Part shown: one piece after another, positions 48,876 through 55,944 of the stretch
How the letters are laid out: the number at the start of each line of letters is the position of its first letter
How positions within the stretch are numbered: position 1 is the first letter of the stretch
Origin: Candidatus Poribacteria bacterium
GTDB lineage: Bacteria > Poribacteria > WGA-4E > WGA-3G
NCBI GenBank assembly: GCA_009841255.1
Contig: VXMD01000006.1
Location: 81,718-141,599, forward strand
DNA: 59,882 nt
Direction: 5' to 3'
Position numbers and translations under genes: made by a program
The notes under the pieces: generated by a model
The model's input: the letters and a program-made list of their open reading frames with translations, nothing else
The model's database searches: none
What the model was told of the DNA's origin: nothing

Positions 48876-50630
48876 CTATTTTCTGTCACCTGCTTTTTTT
48901 AGTTTCCTTCTCGCACGCCAATATGCAAACTGCCGGAGATAATAACCGAGGTTTTTCGGAATTTTCTTAAACTCTGGCACAAATGGGCACCTCCCGCCGA
49001 TTACCACCAACTCTACCTTAGCACGCGTCATCGCAACGTAGAAAACGCGCCGCTCCTCTGCGAGTTTACTATCACGACGCGGGAAACGCCGCCTCAGTGT
49101 GTTATGGATGAGAATAACCTTTTCCCATTCCCTGCCTTTTGCCTTGTGGATCGTCGTCACTTCGACAGGATGCGCGTGCCTGGCGAGCATTTCTTGAATC
49201 TGATCGGTTTCGTAGTTCGTGCGCGCCAAAATAGCGGTTTCCTGAGATGATTTCAATTCACGGCGTAAGAGGGTTTCCATAGTCTCAGGGGTTGTCTCTA
49301 AGGTTTTTATGTGCTGTTGCATCGGATTGTGGGCGCGGAGATTTTTACGGATGCGTGGCGTGTTTCGCTCAATCAAGGCTCTTGCGTGTTCGACAATCGT
49401 TGACGTGGAACGATAGTTCCGCGTGATTTCGTATTTTGCGACATCCCGCCGATCGGTAAATTCCTGCATAATTTCGGAATCGCCACCGCGAAACCCGTAA
49501 ATGGCTTGGTCGTCGTCGCCAACAGCGAAAAGGTCTTCCGATAAAAGCGAAATCAGTCGGAAGTCAGCGGGGGCAATGTCTTGGAATTCGTCGACGAGCA
49601 GATACGGGTATTTGTCCCGGTAGGTTTGCCGAAGATCCGGACACGTTTCAAGCAAGTTTGCGGCGTGGATTATCATATCCTCGAAATCGACAGCGTTTGC
49701 CTCGGTTTTGAGCGTTTCATATTTTACGGCAAAAGCCTGCGCCACGCGATCCTCAAGCATCGTTGGGTCGAACAATCCTGTGGTGACCTGCCGTTTTGCT
49801 CGCATAACGGTCTCTTTTATGTCGTTAAAACGGTCGCGGAGATTCTCAAAGTCAGGGTCTCTGTCGAGATGTTCTTTGTATGGGATCTCGAAATGCTGGC
49901 AGAACATTTCAAGCACGAGCTGGTTGCCATACTGCACCCGCAACGGATCGGCACGATTAAACACGTCTGCACGTTTTCTGTAGAACGCAATCCAGTGCGC
50001 CTCGCGACGATTCGCCTCTCGTCCTGGCACCCATTCAAGCACCTCAAAACTGAAATGTGTTTCACTTTCGGCTCGGATCGCTTGTCGAAGTCGGTCATTT
50101 GATGAGTGATCGAAGTGTTCCTTCCGCCGCCGATCTGGATTTGTCGTTTGCCCGATGTAACATCTGCCGGTACTTTTACTCTCTATCCTATAGATGGCAA
50201 CCGAGGCATCAGAGGCTTTCCGTTCAATCTGCCTCCGTTCTTCCGAGATAATTTTATCTATCTGTCCCGCCCAAATCTCAGGGATGTGACGAAATCCCGA
50301 GCGTTCATAGTTTTCAGTGATAATGTCTTTACCGAAGGCATGAAGTGTTCGGATTACAGGTTTTTGGGACGTTTCAGTGTTATCAGAGAATTTTGATGAC
50401 GCGAGTCCAGACAGGATTCGTATTTCCATCTCTTCAACGGCTTTTCTATTGAAGGCGATAGCGAGGATTTGCGAAGGTGGGATGTTGTGTGTCTGGATCA
50501 GGTTCAGAATCCGTGCCGTTACAACTGTCGTTTTGCCGCTGCCGGGTCCCGCGATGACAATAGCCGGACCTCTGACATGATTCACGGCTTTTTCTTGGTT
50601 TCTATCAAGTCTCATATAGTTTAAATTCAC
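48876..50630 (-). CDS. UvrD/Rep-type SF1 helicase with embedded GIY-YIG nuclease domain
   Basis: The 584-residue protein has all main SF1A helicase motifs: Walker A GPGSGKTT (28-35), Ia AFNRKAVEEMEIR (60-72), Ib TLHAFG (95-100), II DEFQD (347-351), III GDDDQAIYGFRGG (371-383), IV NYRST, V TTIHKAKGREWE (492-503) and VI EERRVFYVAMTRAK (525-538). Inserted after motif Ib, in the 1B subdomain, is a GIY-YIG domain at about 143-226. It shows AIY (145-147), YIG (158-160), DRRRKEH (166-172), Glu210 in REAHWIAFY and Asn225. It should unwind DNA and may nick it. The start is GTG 50630, overlapping the upstream stop as GTGA; ATG 50615 is possible. The UvrD C-terminal extension is short, so this is smaller than full UvrD. 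Confidence 0.88.
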   Translation of the reverse strand: MNLNYMRLDRNQEKAVNHVRGPAIVIAGPGSGKTTVVTARILNLIQTHNIPPSQILAIAFNRKAVEEMEIRILSGLASSKFSDNTETSQKPVIRTLHAFGKDIITENYERSGFRHIPEIWAGQIDKIISEERRQIERKASDASVAIYRIESKSTGRCYIGQTTNPDRRRKEHFDHSSNDRLRQAIRAESETHFSFEVLEWVPGREANRREAHWIAFYRKRADVFNRADPLRVQYGNQLVLEMFCQHFEIPYKEHLDRDPDFENLRDRFNDIKETVMRAKRQVTTGLFDPTMLEDRVAQAFAVKYETLKTEANAVDFEDMIIHAANLLETCPDLRQTYRDKYPYLLVDEFQDIAPADFRLISLLSEDLFAVGDDDQAIYGFRGGDSEIMQEFTDRRDVAKYEITRNYRSTSTIVEHARALIERNTPRIRKNLRAHNPMQQHIKTLETTPETMETLLRRELKSSQETAILARTNYETDQIQEMLARHAHPVEVTTIHKAKGREWEKVILIHNTLRRRFPRRDSKLAEERRVFYVAMTRAKVELVVIGGRCPFVPEFKKIPKNLGYYLRQFAYWRARRKLKKAGDRK

Positions 50631-51061
50631 TTAGGCATACGCCGCACCCATAGCAGTAACGCTACATTCATCGCGCCGATAAAGCCGAAAACATAGGATT
50701 GGATGCCTACCAACGTATCAAGTGAGCGGATGAGGAAGGGACAAAGAATCGGTAAGCCGAGTGCCAAGCAGGTATAAAAGGTCAGAAGTTTTGCACCTCT
50801 CGCTTCCCAGAAGGTTATCTGCCGCCTTAAAACCTGTAGATACGATTGATCCCACAGTCGGGAGGTCCACTTCCCCTGCATGAAACCCAAGCCGATCCCT
50901 AAGCCGTAACCAAAACTCGACCACCGAAGATCAATCCGGACGTCCTGTGAAACGACAACCACCCAAAGCAGTTGCCCCAACACTGAAAGAATTATGAATG
51001 CCCAAAAAACAGGCAATTTCATATAGAATGGGAGGAGACGCCGATATAACTTATTTGGCAT
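50627..51061 (-). CDS. Small polytopic membrane protein coupled to the helicase
   Basis: The 144-residue protein has two clear N-terminal/C-terminal pairs of hydrophobic segments, about 16-37, 49-61 (weak), 92-110 and 120-138, with basic ends (MPNKLYRRLL, WVRRMPK). I do not recognise it. Its TGA overlaps the helicase start by 4 nt (GTGA), so the two proteins are probably made together. The ribosome binding site is weak. A role beside a helicase-nuclease could be membrane-linked defence or DNA uptake; that is speculation. Confidence 0.65.
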   Translation of the reverse strand: MPNKLYRRLLPFYMKLPVFWAFIILSVLGQLLWVVVVSQDVRIDLRWSSFGYGLGIGLGFMQGKWTSRLWDQSYLQVLRRQITFWEARGAKLLTFYTCLALGLPILCPFLIRSLDTLVGIQSYVFGFIGAMNVALLLWVRRMPK

Positions 51062-51276: not shown

Positions 51277-52065
51277 CTACAAGAGATTAGCTTTGGCGTA
51301 ATTAACCGCGTTTTTGAAGATCACCAATCCGTCGCCTTCTTCAGAACGGATATCTTGCGTTTTAGCGGGTTTCCGTGTCCAACGTGGATGATTCCATTTC
51401 GTCAGGAACCGTTCGGGGTGGGGCATTAATCCGAAAATCTTGCCTGTTGCATCGCATATCCCCGCAATATTGTTATCGGAACCGTTCGGGTTGTTGGGAT
51501 ATCCACGCTCCGCATACCGAAACACGACCTGATGGTTCGCTTCTAATTCTGATAGCACATTTGCTGGAGCAGTAAATCTACCTTCAGCGTGTGCGACAGG
51601 GAGATACACATGCGCTTTGACCCCTTTTGTAAAGATACAAGGACTCTCTTGTGTTTCCATATCCACCCACCGACACTCGAATTTTGCCGAGGTATTCATC
51701 GCTAACGTCGCCCGCTGCGCCATCTCTGAGGTACCGTTTCCGGGCAGTAAGCCTGTTCTCACAAGGACTTGAAACCCATTGCAGATGCCAATTATTAACT
51801 TACCATCTTCGACAAATCGATTCAGGGCATTTGTAAGTTTGTGTTTCATCTCGACCGCTAACAGGATACCCGCCGCAATGTCATCACCGTAGGAGAATCC
51901 ACCGGGAATCGCGAGGATCTGATAGTCGGCAAGATTAATTTTGCCTGATATGAGGTGTTGGATGTGAACTAACGCTGTCTCTGCACCGGCGAGTTGGAAC
52001 GCCATATCCGTTTCCGCATCGCAGTTCGTGCCTGCAGTCCGTAAGATAAGTGCCTTTGGTTTCAT
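51277..52065 (-). CDS. purQ: Phosphoribosylformylglycinamidine synthase subunit PurQ
   Basis: The 262-residue class I glutamine amidotransferase supplies ammonia to PurL in purine synthesis. The catalytic Cys95 is in IIGICNGFQVL, and His/Glu are in LMPHPERFLT. The PurQ start (KALILRTAGTNCDAETDMAF) and GGFSYGDD are typical. AAGG of the leader repeat is 12 nt before the ATG at 52065. purL is upstream in transcription, 246 nt away; purS is not in the window. Confidence 0.96.
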   Translation of the reverse strand: MKPKALILRTAGTNCDAETDMAFQLAGAETALVHIQHLISGKINLADYQILAIPGGFSYGDDIAAGILLAVEMKHKLTNALNRFVEDGKLIIGICNGFQVLVRTGLLPGNGTSEMAQRATLAMNTSAKFECRWVDMETQESPCIFTKGVKAHVYLPVAHAEGRFTAPANVLSELEANHQVVFRYAERGYPNNPNGSDNNIAGICDATGKIFGLMPHPERFLTKWNHPRWTRKPAKTQDIRSEEGDGLVIFKNAVNYAKANLL

Positions 52066-52208: not shown

Positions 52209-52319
52209 CGTAGCGCGTAATGTAATGGAGCGCGGATTTGAGAAGAAACCCCTAAAATCCTAACCCCGTTGTTTTTCCGCAAGGTACGTTTAAAAATCCG
52301 CTAAGGTAAAATTAAAAAA
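52209..52319 (+). repeat. Leader repeat, plus-strand copy overlapping the purL stop
   Basis: The head is GTAGCGCGTAATGTAATGG (another variant). Two tail units follow, CCGCAAGGTACGTTTAAAAA and a second ending AAGGTAAAATTAAAAA. The second tail contains the purL stop (TTA at 52312-52314) on the other strand and the last Phe and stop codons, so the repeat forms the gene end. Confidence 0.7.
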
Positions 52320-54711
52320 CGTGCCAAGCAGATTTGAGAATATCAATCGAGGTATCAACGATCGAGCACCCAGTCTTTCCTGTGATGACGAACTCGGGTG
52401 TGTTTGAAACAGTACCAAGACAGCCAAACGGTATTCCCGCCATGTGATTTTCGTAGGCATGTTGGTGTTGAGGTTCAATCTCTACAAGAAATCGACTATT
52501 TGATTCCGAAAACAGGAGGAAGTCGTCAGCACTGATATCTTCGCCTGTGGGGATACCGTTAAGACTCAGAGATATCCCGTAGCCACCAGCAAAGGCCATT
52601 TCTGCCGCCGCTACACCGATACCCCCTTCAGAACAGTCATGACACGAACGCACCAGTCCACTGTTGATAGCACTGCTGAGACGTTCCATCGTCAATTTTC
52701 CTTCACTCGGACGAATAGCAGGGGCAGTGTTACCGACAAACCCGTGGATGTGGAAGTAGTGCGAACCGCCTAATTCCGCATAGGTATTGCCTACGACATA
52801 GATGAAATTGCCGGGAGTTTTTACGTCCATTGTGACGGCGCGTTGAATGTCGGGCATAACGCAGATAGCGGATATGAGGAGTGTCGAAGGGATTGCGCGT
52901 TGTTCACCGGTCGTGGTATCCCGATATTCGTTGTAGAGGCTATCTTTACCGGAAATAAACGGTGTGCCGTAAGCGGTTGCGATGTCGTAACATGCCCTCG
53001 CCGCACGAACGAGTTCACCGAGTCGGTCGGGTTTGTCCGGATTCCCCCAACAGAAATTGTCCAATAATGCAGTCTTCTCTAAGGTGCCACCAACAGCAAC
53101 AATATTTCTTAAAGCCTCATCAATGGCTGCTGCTGCACTGAGGTACGGATCCACATCGCTATATCTCGGATTGATGCCGTTCGCAACGATTACACCCTTT
53201 CGGCTGCCTAAAACTGGAGTTATGACGCACGCGTCACTCGGTCCATCGTTTTCTACACCGACAAGGGGATTGATAACCATTCCACCTTGGACACCGTGAT
53301 CATATTGCCGGATAACGGATTCTTTACTCGCGATATTTGGACTTGCGAGAAGTTGTTCGAGATCATTCGTATAGGAGCGGTTTTCAACCCCGACTCCTCT
53401 ATCTCGCGACGCCATATCTGGGTGCTTCGGTAGTTCCCAAACCGCCTCTTTCACAGGCATTGGCAGCCCATGGTGGAGAAACTCCATCTCCAAATCAGCA
53501 ACCACTGTGCCTTCATAAAAAACCTGTAACCTATGTGTATCTGTGAAAGTCCCAAGGACTGTGGCTTCAACGACTTCTGCTTCGCATATTTCCATGAGTT
53601 CGTCCAGATTCTCCGGTGGCACAGCGATGACCATCCGCTCCTGTGCTTCGGAGAGCCAGATTTCCCACGGGGCAAGTCCTTCGTATTTCAGAGAGACACG
53701 TTCGAGATGCACTTCCGCCCCTATATCTTCTCCCATCTCTCCGACAGCGGACGAGAACCCGCCAGCACCGCAATCGGTTATGGAACGATAAAGATTTCGA
53801 TCTCGCGCCTGTAACAACGCGTCGACAATCTTTTTTTCCATAATCGGGTTGCCGATCTGCACCACACTGCCGAGGCTTTCAGAGGTATCGTCCAATTCCG
53901 CAGAGGAGAAAGTCGCACCATGAATACCATCGCGCCCGGTTTGTCCGCCGATCGCAACCACCAGATCACCGGGTTCAACGGATTTCTCACATCTGTTTCT
54001 CGGTATTAAACCGACGTTTCCGCAGAAAACGAGCGGGTTTGCGGTATAACGGGTGTCAAAAAGGATAGCACCGTTCGCCGTAGGGATACCCATTCGGTTG
54101 CCGTAATCGCGCACCCCAGCGACAACCCCTTTAAAGACACGCTTCGGGTGGAGCGTCCCTTTCGGGAGTTGCGTGTATGGCGTATCCGGCATCCCGAAAC
54201 AGAATACATCTGTGTTTAGGATCGGTTTCGCCCCGAGTCCTGTGCCGAGTGAATCTCGAATGACACCGCCGATCCCGGTCCCGGCGCCCCCATACGGTTC
54301 AATCGCTGAGGGATGGTTGTGTGTTTCGACCTTAAAAACGAGATTGAATTGTTCATCAAACTCGATAATCCCAGCGTTATCTGAAAAGACGGAGACACAC
54401 CAGGGTTTCGCTATCTCCTCAGTCGCACGTTGAATGAAGCTTGGAAACAAGCCGTCAATCTGCTCTGGTGCTTTTCCTTCTTCGGAATAGAGGATGGTGC
54501 TTTTGAATGTTTTGTGAACGCAATGTTCAGACCACGTCTGGGCGATGGTCTCTATTTCTACATCGGTAGGGTTGCGTCCGAGGGTTCCGAAGTGCGTCTG
54601 AATTGCCTGCATCTCGTTCAGACTCAAGGATAGCGTTCCTTCTCGACTGATACGCATCAATTCGGCATCGTCTGCGTTCAGAATCTCTATTTCGTTAACC
54701 GTACTTGACAT
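52312..54711 (-). CDS. purL: Phosphoribosylformylglycinamidine synthase subunit PurL
   Basis: The 799-residue large subunit converts FGAR to FGAM with ATP and ammonia. Family text includes WSEHCVHKTFKSTI, VFKVETHNHPSAIEPYGGA, GLGAKPILNTDVFCFG and GIGVAAAEMAFAGGYG. It is somewhat longer than the usual PurL of Gram-positive type. The ATG at 54711 follows a GGAGAAAG stretch. Its last codons and stop lie in a leader repeat tail. purQ follows on the same strand. Confidence 0.96.
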   Translation of the reverse strand: MSSTVNEIEILNADDAELMRISREGTLSLSLNEMQAIQTHFGTLGRNPTDVEIETIAQTWSEHCVHKTFKSTILYSEEGKAPEQIDGLFPSFIQRATEEIAKPWCVSVFSDNAGIIEFDEQFNLVFKVETHNHPSAIEPYGGAGTGIGGVIRDSLGTGLGAKPILNTDVFCFGMPDTPYTQLPKGTLHPKRVFKGVVAGVRDYGNRMGIPTANGAILFDTRYTANPLVFCGNVGLIPRNRCEKSVEPGDLVVAIGGQTGRDGIHGATFSSAELDDTSESLGSVVQIGNPIMEKKIVDALLQARDRNLYRSITDCGAGGFSSAVGEMGEDIGAEVHLERVSLKYEGLAPWEIWLSEAQERMVIAVPPENLDELMEICEAEVVEATVLGTFTDTHRLQVFYEGTVVADLEMEFLHHGLPMPVKEAVWELPKHPDMASRDRGVGVENRSYTNDLEQLLASPNIASKESVIRQYDHGVQGGMVINPLVGVENDGPSDACVITPVLGSRKGVIVANGINPRYSDVDPYLSAAAAIDEALRNIVAVGGTLEKTALLDNFCWGNPDKPDRLGELVRAARACYDIATAYGTPFISGKDSLYNEYRDTTTGEQRAIPSTLLISAICVMPDIQRAVTMDVKTPGNFIYVVGNTYAELGGSHYFHIHGFVGNTAPAIRPSEGKLTMERLSSAINSGLVRSCHDCSEGGIGVAAAEMAFAGGYGISLSLNGIPTGEDISADDFLLFSESNSRFLVEIEPQHQHAYENHMAGIPFGCLGTVSNTPEFVITGKTGCSIVDTSIDILKSAWHVF

Positions 54712-54726
54712 TACTTTCTCCGGTAT

Positions 54727-55944
54727 TTATTTATTGCCTTCTTGAAGAGATTTTGCTGCAAATATTGTCAAGCATAATTCTTCGTTAAAGAGTTCATAGA
54801 CAGGTATTTTCCCACTCAACTGCTCACTTTCGTTCAGAATGATGCCAACACCTTCTCCACGTCCTTCTAAAAAATGTCTCCGCTTTACTTGTTTTTCTAC
54901 ATCGTCATCTAAAGTAATTTCCGAAAGTAAACGTGCCAAGAGTTCATTACGCGTGGCTTGATTATAGGGTAATTTATCAATTGTTAAAGAATTTGCTAAT
55001 GCCCCCGGGGAATATAACTCAAGCCGGTCAGCAAACATGAACAGGCGAATTTTTGAGCCGTGTTTTGAATAGTCTCTATGAACAACCGCGTTAACGATTG
55101 CCTCAAATACGGCACGCATGCTGTATTGGGGCTGGTCTATCCTTCCAACTTCCTTACGCGCGGATACCTCGTTGTGTTTTTGAACAAATTTAAAGGCATC
55201 TATAATCTGTTGGTCAAGAGGACCTCTAAAATCCTTTGCATCAATCTGGTAGTTGGCATCTTTTACTTTCCCGCTATAATAAACGGCTTGGATAAAACTG
55301 TTATATAGGCAATCATCAGGTGTATCGTGACACATCAAAACCCCAGCGACAGAAGCCCGAATCTCCCTGCCTTCCTGAACGAGTAAAGTTCTTTTTAGGA
55401 GTAGGTCCTCTATCACATTTTCAGTGGCATCTTCTGTGATGAATCGTTGATAGAGCGGTTCTCTTAGTGTTCTTCTATATGTGTTTGGAACGGGTAGTGT
55501 GTTGAAATGAGTTTTGCGTGGTTGTGAACGGGTTTGAAACAGGCGTGTTAACTGTTGTGTTGACATCTCTTTTTTTGTTTTTTCTCGACGCGTGTAATAC
55601 CCGTTATGAGTCTTGTGAACAAAAAAACTTCGCGGGATCTCTATTTTTAGCAGGTTTTTACCATCAAGCCGTAATTTTTCCGTGAAGATCGGAACGGTAG
55701 GTTCAATGCTATCATTGCATATTTCAATAACCCTTTTTTCTACATTATCCAATTTCTGCAGTTCAATTCCAATGATTTCTTTGTTGTCGTCAACGCCAAT
55801 GAGTATCATTCCCCCTTGGGCATTTGCAAAAGCAGCGATCTCGTCTGCTATGTTGTCTCTGTGAGGGACATCTCTTTTGAATTCCATCGTTGAGTCTTCA
55901 CCAAGAAGAATTTTTTCAATAAGTTCGGTTTGACTGTGAAACAT
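54727..55944 (-). CDS. AlbA_2 (Schlafen-like) domain protein with GHKL ATPase-like domain
   Basis: The 405-residue protein has an N-terminal AlbA_2 domain (about 15-130) with EDSTMEFKRDV and AFANAQGGMILIGVDDNK, and a C-terminal HATPase_c_4-like half with IVNAVVHRDYSKHGSKIRLFMF and LELYSPGALANSL. Such proteins are often annotated as ATP-dependent transcriptional regulators. Several act in phage-defence or mobile islands. GGAGG overlaps the stop of the upstream relic and lies 7 nt before the ATG at 55944, so the two were one operon. It ends 15 nt before purL. Confidence 0.82.
   Translation of the reverse strand: MFHSQTELIEKILLGEDSTMEFKRDVPHRDNIADEIAAFANAQGGMILIGVDDNKEIIGIELQKLDNVEKRVIEICNDSIEPTVPIFTEKLRLDGKNLLKIEIPRSFFVHKTHNGYYTRREKTKKEMSTQQLTRLFQTRSQPRKTHFNTLPVPNTYRRTLREPLYQRFITEDATENVIEDLLLKRTLLVQEGREIRASVAGVLMCHDTPDDCLYNSFIQAVYYSGKVKDANYQIDAKDFRGPLDQQIIDAFKFVQKHNEVSARKEVGRIDQPQYSMRAVFEAIVNAVVHRDYSKHGSKIRLFMFADRLELYSPGALANSLTIDKLPYNQATRNELLARLLSEITLDDDVEKQVKRRHFLEGRGEGVGIILNESEQLSGKIPVYELFNEELCLTIFAAKSLQEGNK

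Follow-up and report, generated by a model that had tools for sequence, protein, structure and literature searches.

In this study, we analyzed a stretch of 59,882 nucleotides from a Candidatus Poribacteria bacterium (contig VXMD01000006.1), referred to here as the window. An open reading frame of 584 codons lies on the minus strand at 48,876–50,630, from a GTG at 50,630 to the stop at 48,876. The initial annotation had described an open frame with a helicase and a GIY-YIG nuclease domain at this site without naming its strand, and our analysis confirmed this frame. Since the orthologues of the fusion gene converge at Met6 when their starts are compared, the true start is probably the ATG at 50,615 (Met6), which would give a protein of 579 aa. 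Residues are numbered from the GTG unless Met6 numbering is indicated.

The fusion gene is preceded on the same strand by a gene for a 144-aa hydrophobic protein without a Pfam match (50,627–51,061). The stop codon of this gene overlaps the GTG of the fusion gene (gtga), and translation of the two genes may therefore be coupled. Further along the minus strand, purQ (FGAM synthase, glutaminase subunit; 51,277–52,065) and purL (FGAM synthase; 52,312–54,711) are in fixed synteny. The neighbours of the fusion gene are thus purL, purQ, the 144-aa protein, a DUF6785 protein, and an AlbA_2/HATPase protein, and no repair gene adjoins it in the window. The AlbA_2 protein is a Schlafen AlbA_2/RecG-C-like ATPase protein encoded next to purL (54,727–55,944, minus strand). 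It gave weak PADLOC matches to Argonaute-associated profiles, and no other neighbour gave a PADLOC match.

Helicase Core and Subdomains

The SF1A motif set, with the Q-motif and motifs I to VI, is complete and in order, as judged by reading of the sequence, Pfam, and an alignment of 46 family sequences. This agrees with the complete UvrD/Rep series in one frame that had been described before. All parts of the gene are given on the minus strand. The N-terminal part of RecA-like subdomain 1A (50,316–50,615) contains the Q-motif, motif I (Walker A, GPGSGKT, with Lys33), a readable motif Ia, and motif Ib (TLHAFG). The C-terminal part of 1A (49,473–49,694) contains motif II (DEFQD) and motif III (GDDDQAIYGFRGG), and RecA-like subdomain 2A (48,994–49,472) contains motifs IV (TRNYRST), V (TTIHKAKGREW), and VI (EERRVFYVAMTRAK). 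Subdomain 1B starts with a helix (model residues 118–136; 50,205–50,315), and its remainder lies beyond the insertion (49,695–49,952). Pfam matched UvrD-helicase at residues 9–393 (E = 4e-61) and UvrD_C at residues 488–544 (E = 4e-23). The best NCBIfam model of the fusion protein was PcrA with 215 bits, where the PcrA cut-off is 911 bits.

A full-length AlphaFold2 model was built from the 46 family sequences, paralogues among them. Its mean pLDDT was 80.9, with 91–96 in the insert, and the RecA2 half was weak in places (pLDDT 38–58). The body of the model matched UvrD, PcrA, and Rep with Z of about 27 (VIA-align), and the core 1A-1B-2A fold was present. The family profile was then compared with PcrA. 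Profile positions 2–107 aligned with PcrA 11–116, 278–475 with PcrA 167–377, and 475–535 with PcrA 556–620. The insertion therefore falls between PcrA 116 and 167, which is within subdomain 1B. In the same alignment, the 2B subdomain between motifs IV and V (PcrA 378–555, about 180 residues) has no counterpart, and 2B is thus absent near residue 480. The loss of 2B is a point that the initial annotation did not contain. Because 2B has no counterpart, we class the protein as a UvrD-like helicase lacking 2B and not as PcrA, UvrD, or Rep. Removal of 2B from Rep activates monomers for unwinding and impairs protein displacement (PMC6158625).

A GIY-YIG Domain within Subdomain 1B

The insertion is a GIY-YIG nuclease domain of the I-TevI type (residues 143–226; 49,953–50,204, minus strand). 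The Pfam GIY-YIG model matched residues 145–219 with E = 2.1e-10 and 41.2 bits, where the cut-off is 22.6, far beyond chance. The hallmarks are Tyr147 (in AIY, a variant of GIY), Tyr158 (YIG), Arg168, His172, Glu210, and Asn225. Their order and residue numbers are as first described, and so is the place of the insertion between motifs Ib and II inside 1B, which Pfam, AlphaFold2, and the profile alignment to PcrA all support. The clean domain boundaries and the uninterrupted frame are likewise supported.

A structure prediction had been suggested as a check of the insert, and it returned a GIY-YIG fold. Modeled alone with AlphaFold2, the insert had a pLDDT of 90.7 and matched I-TevI with Z = 13.2 and an rmsd of 1.9 over 85 residues. 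PD-T4-3 came next (Z = 7.9), followed by UvrC (6.7) and Slx1 (5.1). I-TevI was also the sole PDB match of the insert by sequence profile (E = 1.5e-12), and the top PHROG matches of the region were homing endonucleases. No UvrC model matched the fusion protein, and UvrC and a Cho-like protein are encoded by separate genes. We consider this architecture, a GIY-YIG domain inside 1B of a UvrD/PcrA-type SF1A helicase, practically certain. By analogy with the position of 1B in UvrD/PcrA structures, the nuclease would adjoin the DNA path.

We next considered conservation and selection. In Met6 numbering, K28, Y142, Y153, R163, H167, E205, and N220 are invariant over the 46 sequences, and DEFQD is invariant too, paralogues included. 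The median omega over 130 pairs was 0.097 in the GIY-YIG part and 0.08–0.13 in the helicase parts, and both parts are under strong purifying selection. Given an omega of about 0.1 and invariant catalytic residues in both parts, both predicted activities appear to be needed. The intact motifs and the strong constraint on both parts support the earlier view that this is probably a working fusion.

The domain might instead take the place of 2B as a grip on DNA junctions, without cutting. GIY-YIG domains bind DNA, and in a protein lacking 2B, the duplex-contacting subdomain, another contact with the duplex may be needed. However, none of the 46 sequences departs from the catalytic residues, the metal-binding Glu and the Tyr pair among them. 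If the domain served for binding alone, these residues could be lost, as seen in the degenerate second copy of the domain in long paralogues. We consider this explanation quite unlikely.

Distribution and Inheritance of the Fusion Gene

Within one Candidatus Poribacteria family, a genome search found the fusion gene in 54 of 59 genomes, namely 34 of the 38 genomes of the genus of the window and 20 of the 21 genomes of three other genera. In other Poribacteria families, none of 26 genomes carried the fusion, and two of them gave matches limited to the GIY-YIG part. The gene has no counterpart at the syntenic region in at least two genomes of the family, G022 (L220) and G034 (L219), so it is dispensable and can be lost. 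The 144-aa gene was not found at L220 either. Homologues had been proposed as a check for an artefactual insertion, and the same architecture recurs in dozens of assemblies made independently, several of which consist of a single contig. An assembly or frameshift artefact was therefore rejected.

The order purL, purQ, 144-aa gene, fusion gene is kept in most loci with the flank on the contig. In sister families, purL and purQ are present at the corresponding site, in some together with the 144-aa gene, and no helicase was found there with or without the insertion. Distances between fusion proteins track those between PurL proteins, with a Mantel r of 0.90 where the best of 999 permutations gave 0.42. 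The fusion gene is chromosomal and vertically inherited at a fixed site. Entoporibacteria have been reported from sponges and the coral Porites (PMC8546597). Because several isolate names resemble those of Entoporibacteria from sponges or Porites, the carrier family is probably the sponge-associated Entoporibacteria. One bin, RHO2_bin_17, contains two copies with equal score and identity on different contigs (L187 and L186), which may reflect a recent duplication or a mixture of strains.

We also searched for fusions outside Poribacteria, using one scan of a genome collection with patterns from Poribacteria, collections of viruses, phages, and plasmids, and 398 Pseudomonadota genomes. The window protein alone gave no match in viral contigs. 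The 1B-GIY region gave 53 matches there, and no ORF of these also matched the helicase. The full-length family matched helicases at 80 viral loci, and GIY-YIG was matched at none of them. By tblastn against phages and plasmids, no record covered 80% of the query. Two haloarchaeal plasmid helicases aligned across the insertion (L153 and L154) and a faecal phage contig (L155) were rejected as fusions, having no GIY-YIG match. The sole match of the genome-collection scan outside Poribacteria, Ramlibacter L204, was rejected as well, with the GIY-YIG part only in a 401-aa frame lacking a helicase match. The 398 Pseudomonadota genomes gave no match; that set held no positive control, and the same query does match Poribacteria. 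Since the searches of viruses, phages, and plasmids yielded no fusion, we rejected the idea that the gene as a whole came from a virus or plasmid.

Paralogues and Origin of the Domain

Several genomes carry tandem paralogues of the fusion gene that are 46–56% identical to it (L170:8108–10474, L162:7785–11483, and L203:829–4734). Behind the helicase they have a tail of GrpE (PF01025, E = 4e-26) or of four S1 domains (PF00575, E = 4e-59), and GrpE-fused paralogues occur in eight genomes. The paralogues at L203, L166, and L171 have a second tandem GIY-YIG copy, which keeps a YIG-like element and seems to lack the catalytic Arg and Glu. Neither the tandem paralogues with their GrpE or S1 tails nor the restriction of the fusion to one family was mentioned in the initial annotation. 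Since the GIY-YIG domain occupies the same position in the tandem paralogues, it was inserted before the tandem duplication.

In a tree of GIY-YIG domains, the fused domains formed one clade (100/100) amid homing-type domains that stand alone in viral contigs and in Poribacteria. The tree has few columns and long branches and does not settle the sister group of the fused clade; its I-TevI row was entered by hand, and no conclusion uses the place of this row. Another genome of the same genus (G018) has stand-alone GIY-YIG genes on its contigs C3 and C2 (L093, L094, and L095) that are 37–40% identical to the fused domain.

These relationships raise the question of a selfish homing-type insertion that settled where it does the helicase gene no harm and brings the cell no benefit. 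The nearest matches to the domain are I-TevI and phage homing endonucleases, and the site is a tolerant region of 1B. However, no copy of the fusion helicase without the domain was found, and the domain shared by the paralogues predates their duplication. We saw no NUMOD-like DNA-binding part and no intron or intein splice motifs in the fusion gene. The omega of about 0.1 and the family-wide invariant active site also point to a host function. This makes a purely selfish insertion very improbable.

The 144-aa gene and the helicase gene are separated in some loci by an optional cassette that encodes an HNH nuclease of 135 aa and a small RHH-like protein, at L162:4385–5358 and about ten other loci. 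This cassette is present in about a quarter of loci and absent from the window. It may be taken, with the tandem paralogues and their differing tails, as a sign of anti-phage or anti-element defence, in which a solitary effector would move along foreign or replicating DNA by its motor and cut it with its GIY-YIG domain. The helicase part scores against PADLOC profiles of GajB and of reverse-transcriptase-associated helicases, and GIY-YIG domains are known in PD-T4-3 and PD-lambda-1 defence (PMC10952713). However, the scores of PcrA and Rep models are similar to that of GajB, so the GajB matches reflect shared helicase motifs. No GajA-like neighbour was found in the window, where the AlbA_2 protein beyond purL, with its weak PADLOC matches, is the only defence-like neighbour. 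Typical defence genes also differ from the fusion gene, which stays at one locus, is inherited vertically almost throughout the family, and is strongly constrained. Defence therefore seems unlikely, with a real chance left to it.

Discussion

The genome of the window has its own canonical PcrA, UvrC, and AddA-like genes and a Cho-like GIY-YIG protein elsewhere, so the fusion is an extra enzyme that replaces none of them. We tentatively favour, at close to an even chance, a domesticated homing-type nickase on a 3'-5' helicase lacking 2B, which would cut at junctions for genome maintenance. A UvrD-like helicase gene would have captured a homing-type GIY-YIG domain before the family diversified, and the domain would then have been domesticated. 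The protein is expected to load on single-stranded DNA and to move 3'-5', a polarity taken from homologues. Without the autoinhibitory 2B, it might unwind as a monomer. The GIY-YIG domain mounted on 1B may nick, as its homologues do, the junction of single and double strands that the motor reaches or creates, such as a flap, gap, fork, or D-loop. One polypeptide would thus unite unwinding and incision, which elsewhere need two proteins. Its likely role would be in repair, recombination, or fork processing, and genome maintenance would fit a fixed, constrained chromosomal gene better than defence. Several points count against this overall reading: no repair gene adjoins the fusion gene, the gene is dispensable, and helicases without 2B displace proteins poorly (PMC6158625). 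The RecA2 half of the model is weak in places, so the placement of the nuclease relative to the DNA path is tentative. The GajB-like PADLOC scores and the variable paralogues would suit defence as well.

The fusion may be the first of a class of helicase-nucleases, a proposal that we put somewhat below an even chance. Such a class would combine a nuclease on 1B, loss of the 2B regulator, unwinding and nicking by a single chain, and a domesticated homing nuclease, and it would mark out a single Poribacteria family that is probably associated with sponges. SF1A helicases normally depend on partner nucleases, and as long as motor and nuclease are separate proteins, their coordination is difficult to examine. 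A natural protein of about 580 residues that lacks 2B and carries its nuclease on 1B in the same chain would offer a small model system for the coupling of unwinding and incision. It would also be a case of a selfish homing domain that became a fixed host enzyme. Because the fusion is near-universal in one Poribacteria family and absent from related ones, it is a candidate marker of the genome biology of this lineage.

The fusion shares the complete motif set and the core fold with UvrD, PcrA, and Rep, and differs from them in the absent 2B and the nuclease in 1B; a true PcrA is encoded separately in the same genome. With I-TevI and phage GIY-YIG homing endonucleases it shares fold, catalytic residues, and sequence. 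Homing endonucleases reside in an intron, an intein, or a free-standing mobile gene with a targeting part, whereas the fusion lacks an intron and a NUMOD-type targeting part, and its domain lies inside a host chromosomal helicase fixed in the family. RecB, AddA, and AdnAB also join a UvrD-like motor to a nuclease, but theirs is a C-terminal PD-(D/E)XK nuclease, and the genome has its own AddA-like protein. In Gabija, GajB is a UvrD-like helicase (PADLOC E = 3e-64 for the fusion) that works with a nuclease; this nuclease, GajA, is a separate OLD-family protein, and none is encoded beside the fusion gene, which is thus not a Gabija system. The motor of HsdR is of the SF2 type. An HsdR-type protein has a GIY-YIG domain inserted near residue 800 (PMC1564403, Fig. 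1 legend), inside a motor protein as in the fusion, but it is a Type I restriction subunit and not UvrD-like. In the literature we found no description of a UvrD-type helicase with GIY-YIG inside it, nor of GIY-YIG in Poribacteria, in line with the initial annotation, which named no characterised example. The nearest described protein is Tlr8p of the Tlr1 element in Tetrahymena, in which a GIY-YIG domain follows a PIF1-like SF1 helicase at the C-terminus (PMC1564403, PMC3671162, PMC4642659). Tlr8p belongs to a eukaryotic polinton-like mobile element, whereas the fusion is UvrD-like and holds its nuclease inside 1B.
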